Source: an uncultured candidate division Zixibacteria bacterium (lineage in GTDB: Bacteria; Zixibacteria; MSB-5A5; GN15; PGXB01). From it: DNA of 32,974 nt. Positions 19,837-25,854 of this stretch are shown here, in pieces. The notes beneath the pieces are model-generated. The model saw nothing but the letters and a program-made list of their open reading frames with translations, had not been told where the DNA came from and ran no database searches. Position numbers and translations under genes: made by a program. Location: the NCBI GenBank assembly GCA_937867135.1, contig CALMKK010000177.1, forward strand, positions 1-32,974. Direction: 5' to 3'. How positions within the stretch are numbered: the stretch's first letter is position 1; each line of letters opens with the position of its first letter.

Positions 19837-20640
19837 CTATTGCTTTATGGCTCCGGCAGTTACGCCGGATACAATCTGCCGCTGGAAGAATAGAAAAACG
19901 ATTAAAATTGGGACAACCGCTAGTGTCGAGCCAGCCATCAAGTGGGGCCAATCAATCGCCTGATGCCCCTGATAAAGGGCCAGCCCGACCGGAAGTGTTC
20001 GAACCGATTCTGACGATGTCAAAATAAATGGGAAAATAAAGGAATTCCAGTTGGTCATGAAGGATTGAATAGCCAGGACCGCCAGGGCCGGCTTGCAGAG
20101 AGGCATTACCACCCGGGCAATAATAGTTAATTCGCCGGCTCCGTCGATGCGGGCGGCTTCCTCCATTGACGACGGCAAGCCATCGATATACTGCTTAACC
20201 AGAAATATGCCAATGGGATTCACCAAAAAGGGGAGAATCAGGGCCCAATAGGTATCATAAATTCCGGCCTTATAGACAATCAAATAAAGGGGTATTATTA
20301 TGATATGAGCCGGGATCATCAGGACAAATATAACCGAATAGAACCAGAATTTCTGCCCGATAAAACGATACCGCGAGAATGCATATCCCACCATGAAGCA
20401 AAACAGGATGTTGCCCAGAGTAACAACTATCCCGACCAGAATGGAATTCAGCAGATAGACGGCCATCTGCCCCGAACCAAAAATGTCCAGATATGATTTG
20501 AGGGTAAATCCGGTCGAGAAGAGACTTATCAGGTCCATACCCAAATCGCCCGGTGAAAAGGAAACACGAAACATCCAAAGTAGGGGGAATATCATCACAA
20601 TGAGAATTGATGAAAGAATGAGATACTTTATAATTTTCAT
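19837..20640 (-). CDS. Sugar ABC transporter permease (MalG-type)
   Basis: This 267-residue inner-membrane protein has about six transmembrane helices. Its EAA loop (EEAARIDGAGELTIIARVVMPLCKPAL) is the coupling helix that contacts the ATPase. The family (carbohydrate uptake transporter 1, MalG/LacG/UgpE-like) imports oligosaccharides or glycerol-phosphate-type substrates. Its start overlaps the end of the preceding permease gene by four bases, and the binding-protein gene lies upstream of that. It is the last gene of the unit on this strand; I did not find a good terminator in the 95 bp before the OmpA-like gene. Confidence 0.92.
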   Translation of the reverse strand: MKIIKYLILSSILIVMIFPLLWMFRVSFSPGDLGMDLISLFSTGFTLKSYLDIFGSGQMAVYLLNSILVGIVVTLGNILFCFMVGYAFSRYRFIGQKFWFYSVIFVLMIPAHIIIIPLYLIVYKAGIYDTYWALILPFLVNPIGIFLVKQYIDGLPSSMEEAARIDGAGELTIIARVVMPLCKPALAVLAIQSFMTNWNSFIFPFILTSSESVRTLPVGLALYQGHQAIDWPHLMAGSTLAVVPILIVFLFFQRQIVSGVTAGAIKQ

Positions 20641-21500
20641 TGCAGCGACCTTTGTTGAAAAAGGCCAAATTGGGCCAGAGAAAACACGGCGATTATCAGA
20701 AACAAGATATAGGCGGCCGCCGAAGCATAACCGAACTCGAAACGGCTGAGGCCGGTTTCATAAATAAAATAGACAGCCGTAGAGGTGCCACTTTTGCCGC
20801 CGGTCATGACGAATATTTCCGTGAATATCTGAAAGGATTTAATGGTGTTAATGACCACGATAAACAGCGCCACCGGTTTGAGCAAAGGCAAAGTAATTGA
20901 GAAAAACTGCCTGGTTCGGCCTGCCCCGGCCACGACGGCGGCTTCATATAATTCTTCAGGAATCGATTTCAGGCCGGCCAGGAAGAGAAGCATATAATAT
21001 CCGACCGACATCCAGATATCCATCGCCATTATGGCCATAAGAGCGGTTTTATTGGACAATAGAAAGCCATTCTCCGGGGGGCCCAGACCCAGTATTTGGG
21101 CCAAAATATGTATATACCCGCCTCGTGAATAGAGATTGGTAAAAATAAGGGCTATAACCACCATGGAGGTAATCGATGGCATAAAATAGCCGGAACGAAA
21201 TATGGTTCGTCCCGCAAATTGCTTTTCGACCAAAAGAGCCACTAACAGAGCCACTATGGTGGTTACTGGAATGGTTCCCAGTACAAAATAAAAGGTATTC
21301 TTTAAAGCTTCCGTGAAGGCGCTATCCGAGAAGAGCGCCGCGAAATTTTGAAAACCGACCCAGTGAAAGGAGGGTCGCAGGAGGCGATAATCAGTAAATC
21401 CCAGATATAGTGAGTATAGTAAGGGAAACAGCCAGAAAATTAAAAAGGTCAAAATCCAGGGTGAGGCGAACAGGGATCCGACAGCCCGGCGTGAATTCAT
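20637..21500 (-). CDS. Sugar ABC transporter permease (MalF-type)
   Basis: This 287-residue protein has six predicted transmembrane helices and an EAA loop (LYEAAVVAGAGRTRQFFSITLPLLKPV). It pairs with the MalG-type permease to form the translocation pore. It overlaps both neighbours by four bases (20637-20640 and 21497-21500), so the three genes are translated as a coupled set. The short N-terminus, without the extra helices and periplasmic loop of E. coli MalF, is typical of the LacF/UgpA subgroup. Confidence 0.92.
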   Translation of the reverse strand: MNSRRAVGSLFASPWILTFLIFWLFPLLYSLYLGFTDYRLLRPSFHWVGFQNFAALFSDSAFTEALKNTFYFVLGTIPVTTIVALLVALLVEKQFAGRTIFRSGYFMPSITSMVVIALIFTNLYSRGGYIHILAQILGLGPPENGFLLSNKTALMAIMAMDIWMSVGYYMLLFLAGLKSIPEELYEAAVVAGAGRTRQFFSITLPLLKPVALFIVVINTIKSFQIFTEIFVMTGGKSGTSTAVYFIYETGLSRFEFGYASAAAYILFLIIAVFSLAQFGLFQQRSLQ

Positions 21501-22732
21501 TTATTATCTATCAATTTCTGGATTTTGCCGCGAGCCGCATATAAACCGTCGGCCACCGGCATCCCCTTAAATAGAACTTCCTCCAACATCGTCTCAATGA
21601 TATCTTCAATATATACCCATTGCGGATCAGGAGCAGGGAAAGGGGAGAGATTGATTTCCTTAATAAAAATCTGCAGGGCCGGGTCATCGTTAAAGAACTT
21701 ATCGTTGGCAGTTTCTTTATTTGACGGATTCGCCGAATAATTGGCTTTACAAAAGGCCAGTTGATTTTCTCTGTCGGTTATATATCGGATGAATTTAAGA
21801 GCCTCGGCCCGATGCGGCGATTTGGCGCTGACCGATAAATATTCTCCGCCGACGAATGATTTTCCGGGGTAGACAGGACCGGGAATAAGAGCGGTCATGA
21901 AATCAATATTAATTTTTTCATTTCTAATTCGTTTCAAGAGCCAGTCGCCGGAAATAATCACGCCGACCTTCCCAGCCAGGAAAGCATCTTCGATCCGTCG
22001 CTGGGTATCTACCAGAGAACAACTATCGCTCAGATTTTTGTAATACTTGAGGGCATCGTACCCTTTTTGACTTGAGATGACGGCGAAATTGCCGTTGCGG
22101 CTGATAATTCTGCCGCCAAAGGACCAGAAAAACGGCAGGAATTTTTTGTAAAGGGTATGCTTCTCAGCGGCATTAGAGCCGAAGCCCCGCACCCCATTCC
22201 CGAGTGAATCAATTTTGAAGCAAAGGGTTTTCAATTGATCGAAAGTTATGGGAACGAAGTTGGAATCTTTCATAGCTCTGATCATGAGGGTGCGATTAAT
22301 ATATAAGACTCTGGTTCCCAGAATCCAGGGCATGGCATAAATGTCATTATTATATATGGCGGGGGGCCAGCCATAATATCCGGATGTATCTTTAACAAGA
22401 TCTTTAGACATCGGCATTAATTGGCCGGTTGAAGCGAATTCATAAATCCAATCCGAGCCGAGTTCGACAATATCCGGCGCCGTGCCTGAGGAAAAAGCCA
22501 CGACAATTTTTTCATGGCCGTTGCCCCAGGTGAGGTCGGTTAATTTGATTTTAATGTCGGGATTTTGCGCCTCATAATCAGCCACTATTTTTTCAAGAGT
22601 CGGCTTGATTGAGGGATCGGTCCAGAATTGCCACCACTCGATGGTGGTCGGACCGTTATTTTTGCCAGAACATGATAATAGCCCCAGAAGGGAAACAATC
22701 AGAATTATTGCATATAATTTATTTGTTTTCAT
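21497..22732 (-). CDS. Sugar ABC transporter substrate-binding lipoprotein
   Basis: The 411-residue protein has a lipoprotein signal (YAIILIVSLLGLLSC, Cys near 21), then the family 1 extracellular solute-binding fold: TIEWWQFWTDPSIKP at the N-terminus, VAFSSGTAPDIVELGSDWIYEFASTGQL, a central NDIYAMPWILGTRVLYINR, and FVGGEYLSVSAKSPHRAEALKFIRY near the C-terminus. It captures the sugar outside the inner membrane and delivers it to the two permeases. The substrate cannot be read from sequence. No ATPase gene is in the unit, so a shared MsmX/UgpC-type ATPase encoded elsewhere is expected. The ATG at 22732 has no Shine-Dalgarno site and lies six bases after a -10 box, suggesting a leaderless mRNA. 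Confidence 0.93.
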   Translation of the reverse strand: MKTNKLYAIILIVSLLGLLSCSGKNNGPTTIEWWQFWTDPSIKPTLEKIVADYEAQNPDIKIKLTDLTWGNGHEKIVVAFSSGTAPDIVELGSDWIYEFASTGQLMPMSKDLVKDTSGYYGWPPAIYNNDIYAMPWILGTRVLYINRTLMIRAMKDSNFVPITFDQLKTLCFKIDSLGNGVRGFGSNAAEKHTLYKKFLPFFWSFGGRIISRNGNFAVISSQKGYDALKYYKNLSDSCSLVDTQRRIEDAFLAGKVGVIISGDWLLKRIRNEKINIDFMTALIPGPVYPGKSFVGGEYLSVSAKSPHRAEALKFIRYITDRENQLAFCKANYSANPSNKETANDKFFNDDPALQIFIKEINLSPFPAPDPQWVYIEDIIETMLEEVLFKGMPVADGLYAARGKIQKLIDNK

Positions 22733-22816: not shown

Positions 22817-23680
22817 ATGCGGAGTACTTTTATAAAGTTATATATCATTATAACAATCGCTTCATTATGGCCAATCTCAGTCAATGGAGCGGTGGAGGCC
22901 AAAAATGCTCCGCCGTGGTTCGATACCGGGACTTTTCCGACTCTAATCATATCCATAATATCCATTCTTGTGGTTCTTATTGTAATCGACATGGCCAGAC
23001 GGGGGAAGAAGTTCACAATCCGTGAAATCGCCGGACTGAAAGCGATTGAGGAAGCGGTGGGACGAGCGACGGAAATGGGGGCGCCCATGCTTTTTACCCC
23101 CGGTTACGGAAGTGATATACAGCGACCGACCACAATTGCCTCGATGAATATATTATCAACCGTCGCGGAAAAAGCCGCAGAATATGATTGCCGATTGATT
23201 TATCCTACCCACGATCCGGTGATTATGGCGGTGGCCCAGGAAGTGGTCAAGGAAGGTTGTATAAAGGCAGGGTATCCTGAGCGGTTTCATGGTGATGATA
23301 TTTTCTACATTTCTTCATCGCAATTCGGTTACGCGGCGGCGGTCGACGGACTAATCAGCCGTTCCCGACCGGCCTCGATTTTTCTTCTGGGGACCTTTGA
23401 AGCTGAATCGTTGATAATGGCGGAGACCGGCAATAATGTCGGAGCGATTCAAATTGCGGGAACCGATTCGACCATTCAACTGGCCTTTTTTATCGTGGCT
23501 TGTGATTACACTTTAGTCGGCGAAGAACTATTTGCCGCCTCCGGCTATTTGACGAAAAATCAGGCCATATTATCATCTGTTAAGGCGCAGGATGTCATGA
23601 AAATTATCATTGCGGTTTTTGTTATTGTGGCGGTTATTTGGGTGACAATCGATCCTTTATCGAGCTGGTGGAAATATTAA
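22817..23680 (+). CDS. DUF6754-family membrane protein
   Basis: I choose ATG 22817 over the TTG at 22787 because it begins a signal-like segment (MRSTFIKLYIIITIASLWPISVNGA). The better GGAGG nevertheless lies too far upstream (22788), so the start is not certain. The 287-residue product has a second membrane helix (about 35-57, LIISIISILVVLIVIDMARRG) and a soluble alpha/beta domain (about 60-255). Typical DUF6754 stretches in it are EEAVGRATEMGAPMLFTPG, GTFEAESLIMAETGNNVGA, IQIAGT and VACDYTLVGEELFAASGYL. A C-terminal helix (IIIAVFVIVAVIWVTI) ends the chain. DUF6754 is known mainly from Chloroflexota and FCB-type genomes and has no assigned function. It is the first gene of a packed operon, with the next ATG directly at its stop codon. 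Confidence 0.85.
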   Translation: MRSTFIKLYIIITIASLWPISVNGAVEAKNAPPWFDTGTFPTLIISIISILVVLIVIDMARRGKKFTIREIAGLKAIEEAVGRATEMGAPMLFTPGYGSDIQRPTTIASMNILSTVAEKAAEYDCRLIYPTHDPVIMAVAQEVVKEGCIKAGYPERFHGDDIFYISSSQFGYAAAVDGLISRSRPASIFLLGTFEAESLIMAETGNNVGAIQIAGTDSTIQLAFFIVACDYTLVGEELFAASGYLTKNQAILSSVKAQDVMKIIIAVFVIVAVIWVTIDPLSSWWKY

Positions 23681-24301
23681 ATGCACACCAGAATTCCCTT
23701 ATTGATATGCCTTATCGCCGGAGTCCTGATGTTTCTCCAGTATTTCTCCGGCCATCCGGCGGCGAAAGCAATCTATAACAATATTCTTGATTGGTGGCAG
23801 ATTATTTTCGCGTTTACGTTGTTGGTCGGGGTTTTGGGTTTTATACGAAACAACCTTAGAAGTATCAGCCGAAAAAAGGAGACCCCCTTCAAGACGATTG
23901 CACTGATGGCACTGGTTTCAATGCCTTTTCTGGCTCTTGTCGGGGGGACTAAAATCGGTTCGCCTTTTATGTGGGTTTTTGAATATATGCAGGCGCCGAT
24001 GCAGGCGACCGTGTTTTCGCTATTGGCATTTTTTGTCGCGTCGGCTTCCTTTCGCGGTTTCCGCGCCCGCTCCGTTCCGGCGGCTATTCTACTGGTTTCG
24101 GCGGTAATTGTCCTGGTGGGCCGAGTTCCGCTTACCGAGCATTTTTCGACATCGCTCTCCAAAATCACTTTCTGGATTCAGGATTATCCGTCAATGGCGG
24201 CGCGCCGGGCCATTCTAATTGGCATCGGTCTGGGTTCCATGACCACGGCTTTGCGCGTAATTTTGGGAATTGAACGGACATACTTGCGGGGCGAGCGATG
24301 A
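23681..24301 (+). CDS. Polytopic membrane protein of unknown function (operon gene 2)
   Basis: This 206-residue protein has about five to six hydrophobic segments (for example PLLICLIAGVLMFLQYF, IIFAFTLLVGVLGFI, ALMALVSMPFLALVGG, VFSLLAFFVASASFRGF, AAILLVSAVIVLVGRV and ILIGIGLGSMTTALRVIL). Basic residues cluster between segments 2 and 3 (RNNLRSISRKKE) and at the C-terminus, which would face the cytoplasm. I recognise no family and no catalytic or metal-binding motif. Its ATG follows the DUF6754 stop without a gap and its stop overlaps the next start by four bases, so it is surely made together with its neighbours and is probably an integral part of the same complex. Confidence 0.85.
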   Translation: MHTRIPLLICLIAGVLMFLQYFSGHPAAKAIYNNILDWWQIIFAFTLLVGVLGFIRNNLRSISRKKETPFKTIALMALVSMPFLALVGGTKIGSPFMWVFEYMQAPMQATVFSLLAFFVASASFRGFRARSVPAAILLVSAVIVLVGRVPLTEHFSTSLSKITFWIQDYPSMAARRAILIGIGLGSMTTALRVILGIERTYLRGER

Positions 24302-25113
24302 GCGGTGAAAAAAGGCGCTGGATAATATTCGCCGCGCTTTTTGCGGTGGCAATCATATCATATATTCTGCCGATTCAAATAGAATCGCGGCCGTCTCCGG
24401 AAGTTCAGAAAAGCTATGATTATATCGAGAATCTGCCCGACTCGTCGGTGATGATGATTTCGTTCGACCACGAAGCTTCATCGCTTCCAGAAATTCAGCC
24501 GATAAGCCTGGCCATTCTGCGGCATCTTTTTCGCAAGAATTTACGGATAATTGGATTGTCGCTCTTTGCCGAAGGAACGGCGATTGGCTATGAAATGCTG
24601 AACAGAACAGCGCGGCAATACGGGAAGATTTATGGGCGTGATTATGTTTTTCTGGGTTTCAAACCGCAGCATATTTCGGCCATATTGGGAATGGGAGAAT
24701 CCATAAGGCGGGTTTTCCCGGAAGATTATTTTGGAAATGAGACCGATACGCTGGCCGTTATGCAGGGGGTTGATAATTACGATAAGGTGGCGATGGTAAT
24801 TTCAATCGCCGACGGCGACCGGGCGGTACAATGGATCGAGTATGCCGGAGCGCGATACAATCAAAAAATAATGGCCGGTTTGACCGCCGCCATGATCACG
24901 ACCTATGATCCGTATTTGGGCTCCGGTCAGCTTTATTCGGTAGTGGGCGGCCTTAAGGGTGCGGCCGAGTATGAAAAACTCTCAGGTCATCTCGGCGCGG
25001 GAAATCGGGGGATGTGGGCACAGACGACCAGTCACATTTTTATTATTGTGATGATTATTATTGGAAATATTGTCTATTTTCGTTCAAAGTCATCGCAAAA
25101 GGGGAGAGGATAG
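24298..25113 (+). CDS. Membrane-anchored alpha/beta protein, apparent distant paralogue of the DUF6754 protein (operon gene 3)
   Basis: The 271-residue product has an N-terminal membrane helix (about 7-26, WIIFAALFAVAIISYILPI), a soluble alpha/beta domain (about 45-235) and a C-terminal helix (HIFIIVMIIIGNIVYF) with a short basic tail. I recognise no named family. Read side by side with the first operon gene, the secondary-structure order and several short blocks match: RDYVFLGFKPQHISAILGMG against DDIFYISSSQFGYAAAVDGL, and IMAGLTAAMITTYDPYLGSG against IQIAGTDSTIQLAFFIVACD. Both proteins close with a glycine/alanine helix before the last membrane segment. Common ancestry is therefore inferred, not shown. 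The ATG overlaps the previous stop (ATGA). Confidence 0.82.
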   Translation: MSGEKRRWIIFAALFAVAIISYILPIQIESRPSPEVQKSYDYIENLPDSSVMMISFDHEASSLPEIQPISLAILRHLFRKNLRIIGLSLFAEGTAIGYEMLNRTARQYGKIYGRDYVFLGFKPQHISAILGMGESIRRVFPEDYFGNETDTLAVMQGVDNYDKVAMVISIADGDRAVQWIEYAGARYNQKIMAGLTAAMITTYDPYLGSGQLYSVVGGLKGAAEYEKLSGHLGAGNRGMWAQTTSHIFIIVMIIIGNIVYFRSKSSQKGRG

Positions 25114-25114
25114 A

Positions 25115-25729
25115 GTGGATATCGGGATTATTATAGCCGGGCTTTTGACGCTGGCTATTTATTCATTCCTCTATCGGGATAATCCGGTTTATAAAGCGGC
25201 CGAATCGCTTTTGATCGGCCTTTCTATCGGGTATGCGCTGGTTATTTTCTGGCAGACAACTCTGGTGGATCGTCTTTTCCGGCCACTTTTCAATGAAGGG
25301 GATTTGATTTTGATAATCCCACTACTTTTGGGTCTAATGATGTTCAGCCGCTTTTCGCAGAAATTAACCTGGCTGTCACGTCTCCCGATTGCTTTGATGA
25401 TAGGTGCCGGCGCCGGGGTTTCGATACCAGCCATGCTTTATGCTCGGACTTTGAAACAGATATCCGCCTCGGTGGCACCACTATACACTGCTTCGGGGGG
25501 ATTTGATTTCTCCGCTCTGGTTATCATTTTGGGACTTCTTTCAACCCTCGCCTATTTCTATTTCAGCCGGCGGCATGAAGGCGCCATGGGCAAGATGGCC
25601 AAAGCGGGCACATATTTTCTTATGATATTTTTTGGCGCAACCTTCGGGTATACGGTTATGTCCCGACTTTCAACGTTGATCGGAAGAATAGATTTTCTTC
25701 TGACTGATTTTCTGCATGTTTTAAGATGA
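25115..25729 (+). CDS. Polytopic membrane protein of unknown function (operon gene 4)
   Basis: The track starts this ORF at 25061, inside the previous gene. GTG 25115 is better, because it lies one base after that gene's stop and four bases after GGGGAGAGGA. The resulting 204-residue protein has about six hydrophobic segments (IGIIIAGLLTLAIYSFLY, LIGLSIGYALVIFW, LILIIPLLLGLMMF, LPIALMIGAGAGVSIPAML, ALVIILGLLSTLAYFYF, YFLMIFFGATFGYTV), with basic loops such as RFSQKLTWLSR and SRRHEG. I recognise no family. Its stop overlaps the start of a small zinc-ribbon gene (ATGA), placing it in the middle of a five-gene coupled unit. Confidence 0.82.
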   Translation: MDIGIIIAGLLTLAIYSFLYRDNPVYKAAESLLIGLSIGYALVIFWQTTLVDRLFRPLFNEGDLILIIPLLLGLMMFSRFSQKLTWLSRLPIALMIGAGAGVSIPAMLYARTLKQISASVAPLYTASGGFDFSALVIILGLLSTLAYFYFSRRHEGAMGKMAKAGTYFLMIFFGATFGYTVMSRLSTLIGRIDFLLTDFLHVLR

Positions 25730-25854
25730 TTTGTCAGCGCTGCAAAATAAAAATGACGGAATTTAAGCGCTCGTTCCATAAACAACGGAAATGGGTTTGT
25801 TCGAAGTGCGGAAAAATTCGCTTTCAGAAGGTGAAGGAATCCCGGAAGATGTAA
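25726..25854 (+). CDS. Small basic zinc-ribbon protein (42 aa)
   Basis: This gene is too short for the ORF track. Its ATG overlaps the TGA of the upstream membrane-protein gene (ATGA). The product begins MICQRCKIK and has a second pair CSKC at about residues 25-28, giving CxxC-x18-CxxC, a four-cysteine zinc-ribbon arrangement. The rest is strongly basic (about a dozen Lys/Arg). Such mini ribbons usually bind nucleic acid or a protein partner. Its fixed place at the end of the DUF6754 operon suggests either a regulatory or assembly role there, or simple co-transcription. I assign no function. Confidence 0.65.
   Translation: MICQRCKIKMTEFKRSFHKQRKWVCSKCGKIRFQKVKESRKM

Follow-up and report, generated by a model that had tools for sequence, protein, structure and literature searches.

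In the window, i.e. the complete stretch of 32,974 nucleotides analyzed here, five genes (g1 to g5) form an operon at 22817-25854 on the plus strand (Table 1). Spacings of 0, -4, +1 and -4, recomputed from the gene coordinates, bear out in position and distance the coupled, probably co-translated operon that had been proposed in an earlier sequence-only reading. g1 is a full-length member of DUF6754 (PF20539), scoring 337.6 bits against a gathering score of 27 over profile positions 4-249 of 257, in line with the DUF6754 assignment of the earlier reading. For g2, g3 and g4, searches of Pfam and NCBIfam gave no family above cut-off, in line with the earlier description of two polytopic proteins (g2 and g4) of about 205 residues without a recognized family. 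A gene for the zinc ribbon protein g5 is kept after g4 in ten further loci, all of Zixibacteria type, and belongs to the window-type operon alone. Divergent from the operon, a complete sugar-type ABC importer (two permeases and a binding protein) is encoded on the minus strand at 19837-22732 and is kept in near relatives; both this transporter and a DUF72 gene that adjoins the operon recur mainly among near relatives.

Table 1. Genes and protein segments of the DUF6754 operon in the window.
Feature	Coordinates	Strand	Description	Basis
g1	22817..23680	+	ATG start, 287 aa; DUF6754; signal peptide, TM helix, predicted cytoplasmic alpha/beta domain, C-terminal TM helix	PF20539 E 5e-101; AlphaFold2 pLDDT 90.7
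g1 probable signal peptide, residues 1-25	22817..22891	+		read from sequence
g1 TM helix, residues 37-61	22925..22999	+		AlphaFold2 model, charge profile
g1 predicted cytoplasmic Rossmann-like domain	23003..23560	+	(strand-helix)x6	AlphaFold2 model, alignment
g1 C-terminal TM helix, residues 249-278	23561..23650	+		AlphaFold2 model, charge profile
g2	23681..24301	+	206 aa, six TM helices, N-in/C-in predicted; gap 0 after g1	77-sequence alignment, hydropathy and charge profile
g3	24298..25113	+	271 aa; TM helix, predicted extracytoplasmic alpha/beta domain, C-terminal TM helix; -4 relative to g2	AlphaFold2 model, alignment, charge profile
g3 predicted periplasmic Rossmann-like domain, residues 34-229	24397..24984	+	(strand-helix)x6	AlphaFold2 pLDDT 96.6, predicted topology
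g4	25115..25729	+	GTG start, 204 aa, about six TM helices; +1 after g3	68-sequence alignment, charge profile
g5	25726..25854	+	42-aa zinc ribbon, two CxxC motifs; -4 relative to g4	sequence, neighbor loci

Most g1 homologues harbor an FN3-like domain after the signal peptide and before the first TM helix, which g1 of the window lacks; in the longer homologue of locus L069 the FN3 match (E 4.6e-5) was just under the cut-off. While this outer part varies in length among homologues, 22 residues are invariant in 80 g1 sequences, most of them within the putative cytoplasmic domain, which is the most conserved part. In g3, 5 residues are invariant in 74 sequences, and its C-terminal TM helix carries the conserved residues Q242, H246, G256 and N257.

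The genome from which the window originates encodes six DUF6754 genes in five operons. Besides the operon of the window, contig C370 carries a tandem of three complete g1-g2-g3-g4 operons, and contig C341 a fifth operon in which g1 is present twice. DUF6754 was detected in 60/60 sampled genomes of the order and in 0/14 control genomes. A scan of species genomes yielded 79 loci with about 15 phylum-level names (Zixibacteria/GN15, WOR-3/Stahlbacteria, Fermentibacteria, Latescibacterota, Edwardsbacteria, Coatesbacteria, TA06, Bdellovibrionales/Oligoflexia, Gemmatimonadetes, BRC1, Mcinerneyibacteriota, Cloacimonetes, Poribacteria, Planctomycetota and Eisenbacteria); since nearly all of these records are metagenome bins, individual phylum assignments may be wrong. 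At every locus with sufficient flanking sequence g1 was followed by g2, g3 and g4, exceptions to the plain order being contig ends, tandem copies, an extra g1 or g3 (L083, L008) and split or overlapping reading frames. The order was also kept in all 81 complete cassettes that were assembled, and the distance matrices of their genes correlated with r values of 0.72-0.86. Within tandem arrays, a cassette was mostly closest to the one that occupies the equivalent position elsewhere (positional orthologues), indicating that cassettes are inherited as units. As the four genes recur in fixed order at 79 other loci and five times in this genome, their arrangement is not due to chance. The gene-neighborhood survey that had been proposed as a check thus shows that the four genes stay together and that DUF6754 is not generally found without the other three.

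Two loci of the scan deserve separate mention. In L060:1-3573 (Planctomycetota by name) a 1190-aa open frame ends in the DUF6754 domain and overlaps the frames of the ATPase and the sandwich protein described below, so that most of the additional residues may stem from a spurious frame upstream. At L009, labeled Ignavibacterium, g1 is 70% identical to that of the window and the synteny is Zixibacteria-like; this bin is probably misnamed.

The soluble domains of g1 and g3 had been read as apparently paralogous, seeming to align along their whole length. Confident AlphaFold2 models were obtained for both proteins, and they share the element order TM-helix-(strand-helix)x6-TM with a long second TM helix; the two segments that had been placed opposite each other in the sequence-only reading correspond to strand 3/helix 3 in g1 and g3 alike. 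The equal order of predicted secondary-structure elements therefore stands, whereas HHalign gave the proposed alignment no sequence support. With full-length profiles (80 and 74 sequences) only a TM-helix match was found (11%), and the soluble domains alone reached a probability of 0.1% and a score of 12.6, below both the reversed profile (15.8) and the mean of 60 within-class column shuffles (14.4), the SS column of the shuffled run being 0.0, so that it adds a column-shuffle control only. Foldseek library searches returned weak matches, for g1 among others to a molybdenum-cofactor carrier and to DprA and for g3 among others to proteins of the LOG/YgdH type, all of a generic Rossmann-like kind and none strong enough to tie either model to one superfamily. 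The SLOG/LOG-type and other Rossmann-like proteins matched by one or the other domain (6y01, 5wq3, 1wek, 9us2) resemble it weakly in fold, but with E-values near 0.01, TM-scores of 0.3-0.5 and about 10% identity no membership is claimed. GPCR entries matched by g3 were set aside as presumable hits to the fusion partners of crystallized GPCRs. Sequence searches of g1 to g4 with deep profiles against the PDB revealed no known relative, and profile comparison of g2 with g4 found no homology.

The charge profiles place the two domains apart. In 80 g1 sequences the mean number of K+R was 1.7 before and 4.6 after the first TM helix and 2.3 before and 0.6 after the second; the positive charges following the first helix indicate that the next domain is cytoplasmic. 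The corresponding means in 74 g3 sequences were 2.4 and 1.4 for the first and 1.5 and 4.6 for the second helix. The positive-inside rule thus predicts a cytoplasmic g1 domain and an extracytoplasmic g3 domain, i.e. domains on opposite sides of the membrane. The position of the FN3-like domain between signal peptide and first TM helix in longer g1 homologues agrees with this topology. The common element order of the models is a generic Rossmann-like plan and weak evidence for paralogy; a remote common fold is possible, but the claim of paralogy is not supported. A hetero-complex around two paralogous subunits, to which the shared element order (quoted segments included) and the matches of both proteins to assorted Rossmann-like folds, SLOG-type proteins among them, would lend themselves, is very improbable in view of HHalign scores under those of the controls, the opposite membrane sides and Foldseek matches too weak for a single superfamily.

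Beyond what had been noted before, the analysis revealed the five cassettes in this genome and four further co-occurring families, one of them an ATPase, which were traced from upstream genes common to several phyla. The ATPase family comprises GlmL/MutL-like ASKHA proteins of about 600 residues; the representative in the window's own genome (L089:2675-4528) belongs to PF13941 with 431.9 bits. Its phosphate motifs DCGSTTTK and D-GGATTD are invariant or nearly so, and a family-specific extension of about 125 C-terminal residues follows the Pfam domain. All NCBIfam cut-offs were missed, GlmL (NF040745) reaching 234.1 bits against an equivalog cut-off of 475; GlmL and Or-4 (NF040744) are the closest named relatives. 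The second family, here called the sandwich protein, has about 375 residues, weak biotinyl/RnfC barrel-sandwich matches and a mean column identity of 65%. A small protein of about 100-150 residues and a two-TM protein, which matches YcxB weakly and was named PH-like by eye, complete the set.

In eight loci, seven from Fermentibacteria and one from BRC1, genes for the PH-like protein, the small protein, the ATPase, the sandwich protein and g1 to g4 follow each other contiguously and in the same direction, and a ninth locus of this type (L045) breaks off at a contig end in g3. Within reach of the 79 loci, the ATPase was present at 18, the sandwich protein at 20, the small protein at 16 and the PH-like protein at 11. 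The window's own genome contains all eight families: besides the cassettes, the ATPase and sandwich genes are found on contig C125 and those of the PH-like and small proteins on contig C331, the ATPase set adjoining no cassette. On C125 (L089:2675-10595) a gene for a secreted, probably membrane-anchored protein lies between the ATPase and sandwich genes, and the latter two directly precede a Tol-Pal cluster (MotA/ExbB, ExbD, TolA-like, TolB-like propeller and OmpA-type Pal); an ExbB-like gene is located downstream of four Fermentibacteria clusters. Judged by these neighborhoods, a link of the ATPase set to envelope energization is possible. The Mcinerneyibacteriota cassette of L053 is preceded by three tandem copies of a family of about 188 aa (L053:3800-5600) and accompanied by a divergent ATPase (29% identity), the small protein not being found there.

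Co-occurrence was also assessed by genome. The ATPase was present in 20/20 cassette genomes tested, and the small protein in 18/19 such genomes and in 0/8 genomes without a cassette. Among 144 Bdellovibrionota genomes, g1, g4, the ATPase and the sandwich protein were found in exactly the same three, a naive chance estimate for which would overstate the case because the three genomes may be related; a fourth g1 match was partial (E 4e-4). In one of the three the ATPase pair lies 25 kb from the cassette. In a second phylum (13 genomes) g1 was detected in 11 and the sandwich protein in 12, the contig of the additional sandwich gene ending at the point at which a cassette would be expected. Glutamate mutase E (PF06368) was above cut-off in 0/25 genomes, with four weak matches under the cut-off; the ATPase associated with the cassette is therefore not a mutase accessory, and a glutamate mutase link was rejected. 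The numbers of genes are unequal: the window's own genome has five cassettes but a single gene each for the sandwich and the small protein, and two genomes (G061 and G079) each have two g1 and two g4 genes versus one ATPase and one sandwich gene. These ratios suggest that several membrane cassettes share a single cytoplasmic set.

The four genes, always found together in more than a dozen phyla, are accompanied by an ATPase and three further families without a description. They therefore probably belong to an unstudied membrane machine that is widespread in bacteria. In our main reading, to which we assign a probability of roughly 0.4, the operon would be one membrane cassette of a larger, ATPase-driven inner-membrane machine with a shared cytoplasmic set. 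The gene set and its order, the co-occurrence, the predicted topology, the intact ATPase motifs and the single adaptor gene for several cassettes support it. They also favor the membrane complex considered likely in the sequence-only reading, the formation of which we infer. The two six-TM proteins g2 and g4 would constitute the membrane core. g1 would contribute the highly conserved cytoplasmic Rossmann-like domain and a non-cytoplasmic N-terminus, often with an FN3-like domain, and g3 a Rossmann-like domain on the outer face. A single cytoplasmic set of ASKHA ATPase, barrel-sandwich-like adaptor and small protein may, together with the two-TM protein, serve all cassettes of a cell. The ATPase would act via the adaptor on the cytoplasmic domain of g1, the likely contact, and a conformational change could run through g2 and g4 to g3 and the outer head. 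There, g3 and the outer part of g1 might move or otherwise act on a substrate, which would not be the same for every cassette. Energy coupling, a common ATPase and substrate handling are proposals. Several observations count against such a machine: neighbors beyond the eight families are not common to different phyla and give no hint to a substrate or pathway, g1 to g4 have neither a known PDB relative by sequence nor a convincing fold match, and the ATPase set is separated from every cassette in the window's own genome.

GlmL-type proteins have known roles as accessory or reactivation factors of mutases, and GlmL is considered chaperone-like for a B12 mutase. In view of these relatives, the role of the ATPase may be in assembly or repair of the complex rather than in driving its cycle. 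ATPase, sandwich and small protein would then be a chaperone-like module and the cassette itself passive or driven by the proton gradient, e.g. a channel or carrier. One cytoplasmic set for many cassettes would fit such a role as well, and the conserved H246 and N257 in the last TM helix of g3 are consistent with a gradient-driven cassette, although polar residues in TM helices could equally be conserved as contacts in helix packing. On balance we regard this explanation as somewhat unlikely.

The cassette could also be a sensory or signaling complex, with the FN3 head and g3 as sensors of the envelope and the cytoplasmic domain of g1 passing the signal on to the ATPase and, in this genome, to two-component proteins beside the triple cassette. 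Genes of histidine-kinase/GAF type and with receiver domains are indeed located upstream of the three tandem cassettes (L007:14414-18268 on C370; also L002:2976-3398), and the variable length of the outer part of g1 would suit a sensor. However, kinase neighbors were not seen across other phyla and the twelve TM helices of g2 and g4 exceed the needs of a plain receptor, making signaling improbable. A known anti-phage defense system was rejected, as PADLOC models gave a chance-level match only (E 0.013).

Seven of the eight families lack a described function, and the name of the eighth, mutase accessory protein, misfits here. A set that has stayed complete in so many phyla, and in 60/60 genomes sampled from the order, must have an important role. 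Its phyletic pattern and the eight-gene order define a set of proteins for expression, and the single compact clusters of Fermentibacteria, BRC1 and Gemmatimonadetes or the patchy distribution in Bdellovibrionota make the question of function testable. The broadest claim would be a previously unrecognized class of trans-envelope machine that runs on ATP, occurs throughout Zixibacteria and extends to about 15 phylum-level lineages. Its several interchangeable membrane modules, each of four proteins and with a Rossmann-like domain on either face of the membrane, would be powered by one ASKHA ATPase set; in this form we consider the claim unlikely.

The open-access literature, to which the search was confined and which excludes subscription papers, yielded no mention of DUF6754, PF20539 or PF13941, and the impression that the system is undescribed agrees with the lack of an open-access paper on the first two. 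We know of no described system of this composition, and newness is claimed for the gene set rather than for an activity. Pfam names the DUF6754 domain alone; to our knowledge, the invariant partners g2, g3 and g4 and the ATPase set have not been described under PF20539. With the GlmL/MutL proteins (PF13941; methylaspartate mutase accessory GlmL, NF040745; Or-4, NF040744) the ATPase shares the ASKHA core and both phosphate motifs, but it falls below all NCBIfam cut-offs, has some 125 extra residues at its C-terminus and goes with membrane cassettes instead of mutases. In group II ECF transporters a shared cytoplasmic ATP-binding energizer serves several interchangeable membrane modules per cell. 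Although the ATPase is here of the ASKHA and not the ABC type, the modules consist of four proteins with domains on both membrane faces, sequences are unrelated and transport by the cassettes is hypothetical, both systems would, by analogy, have in common one shared cytoplasmic set and several membrane modules per cell.
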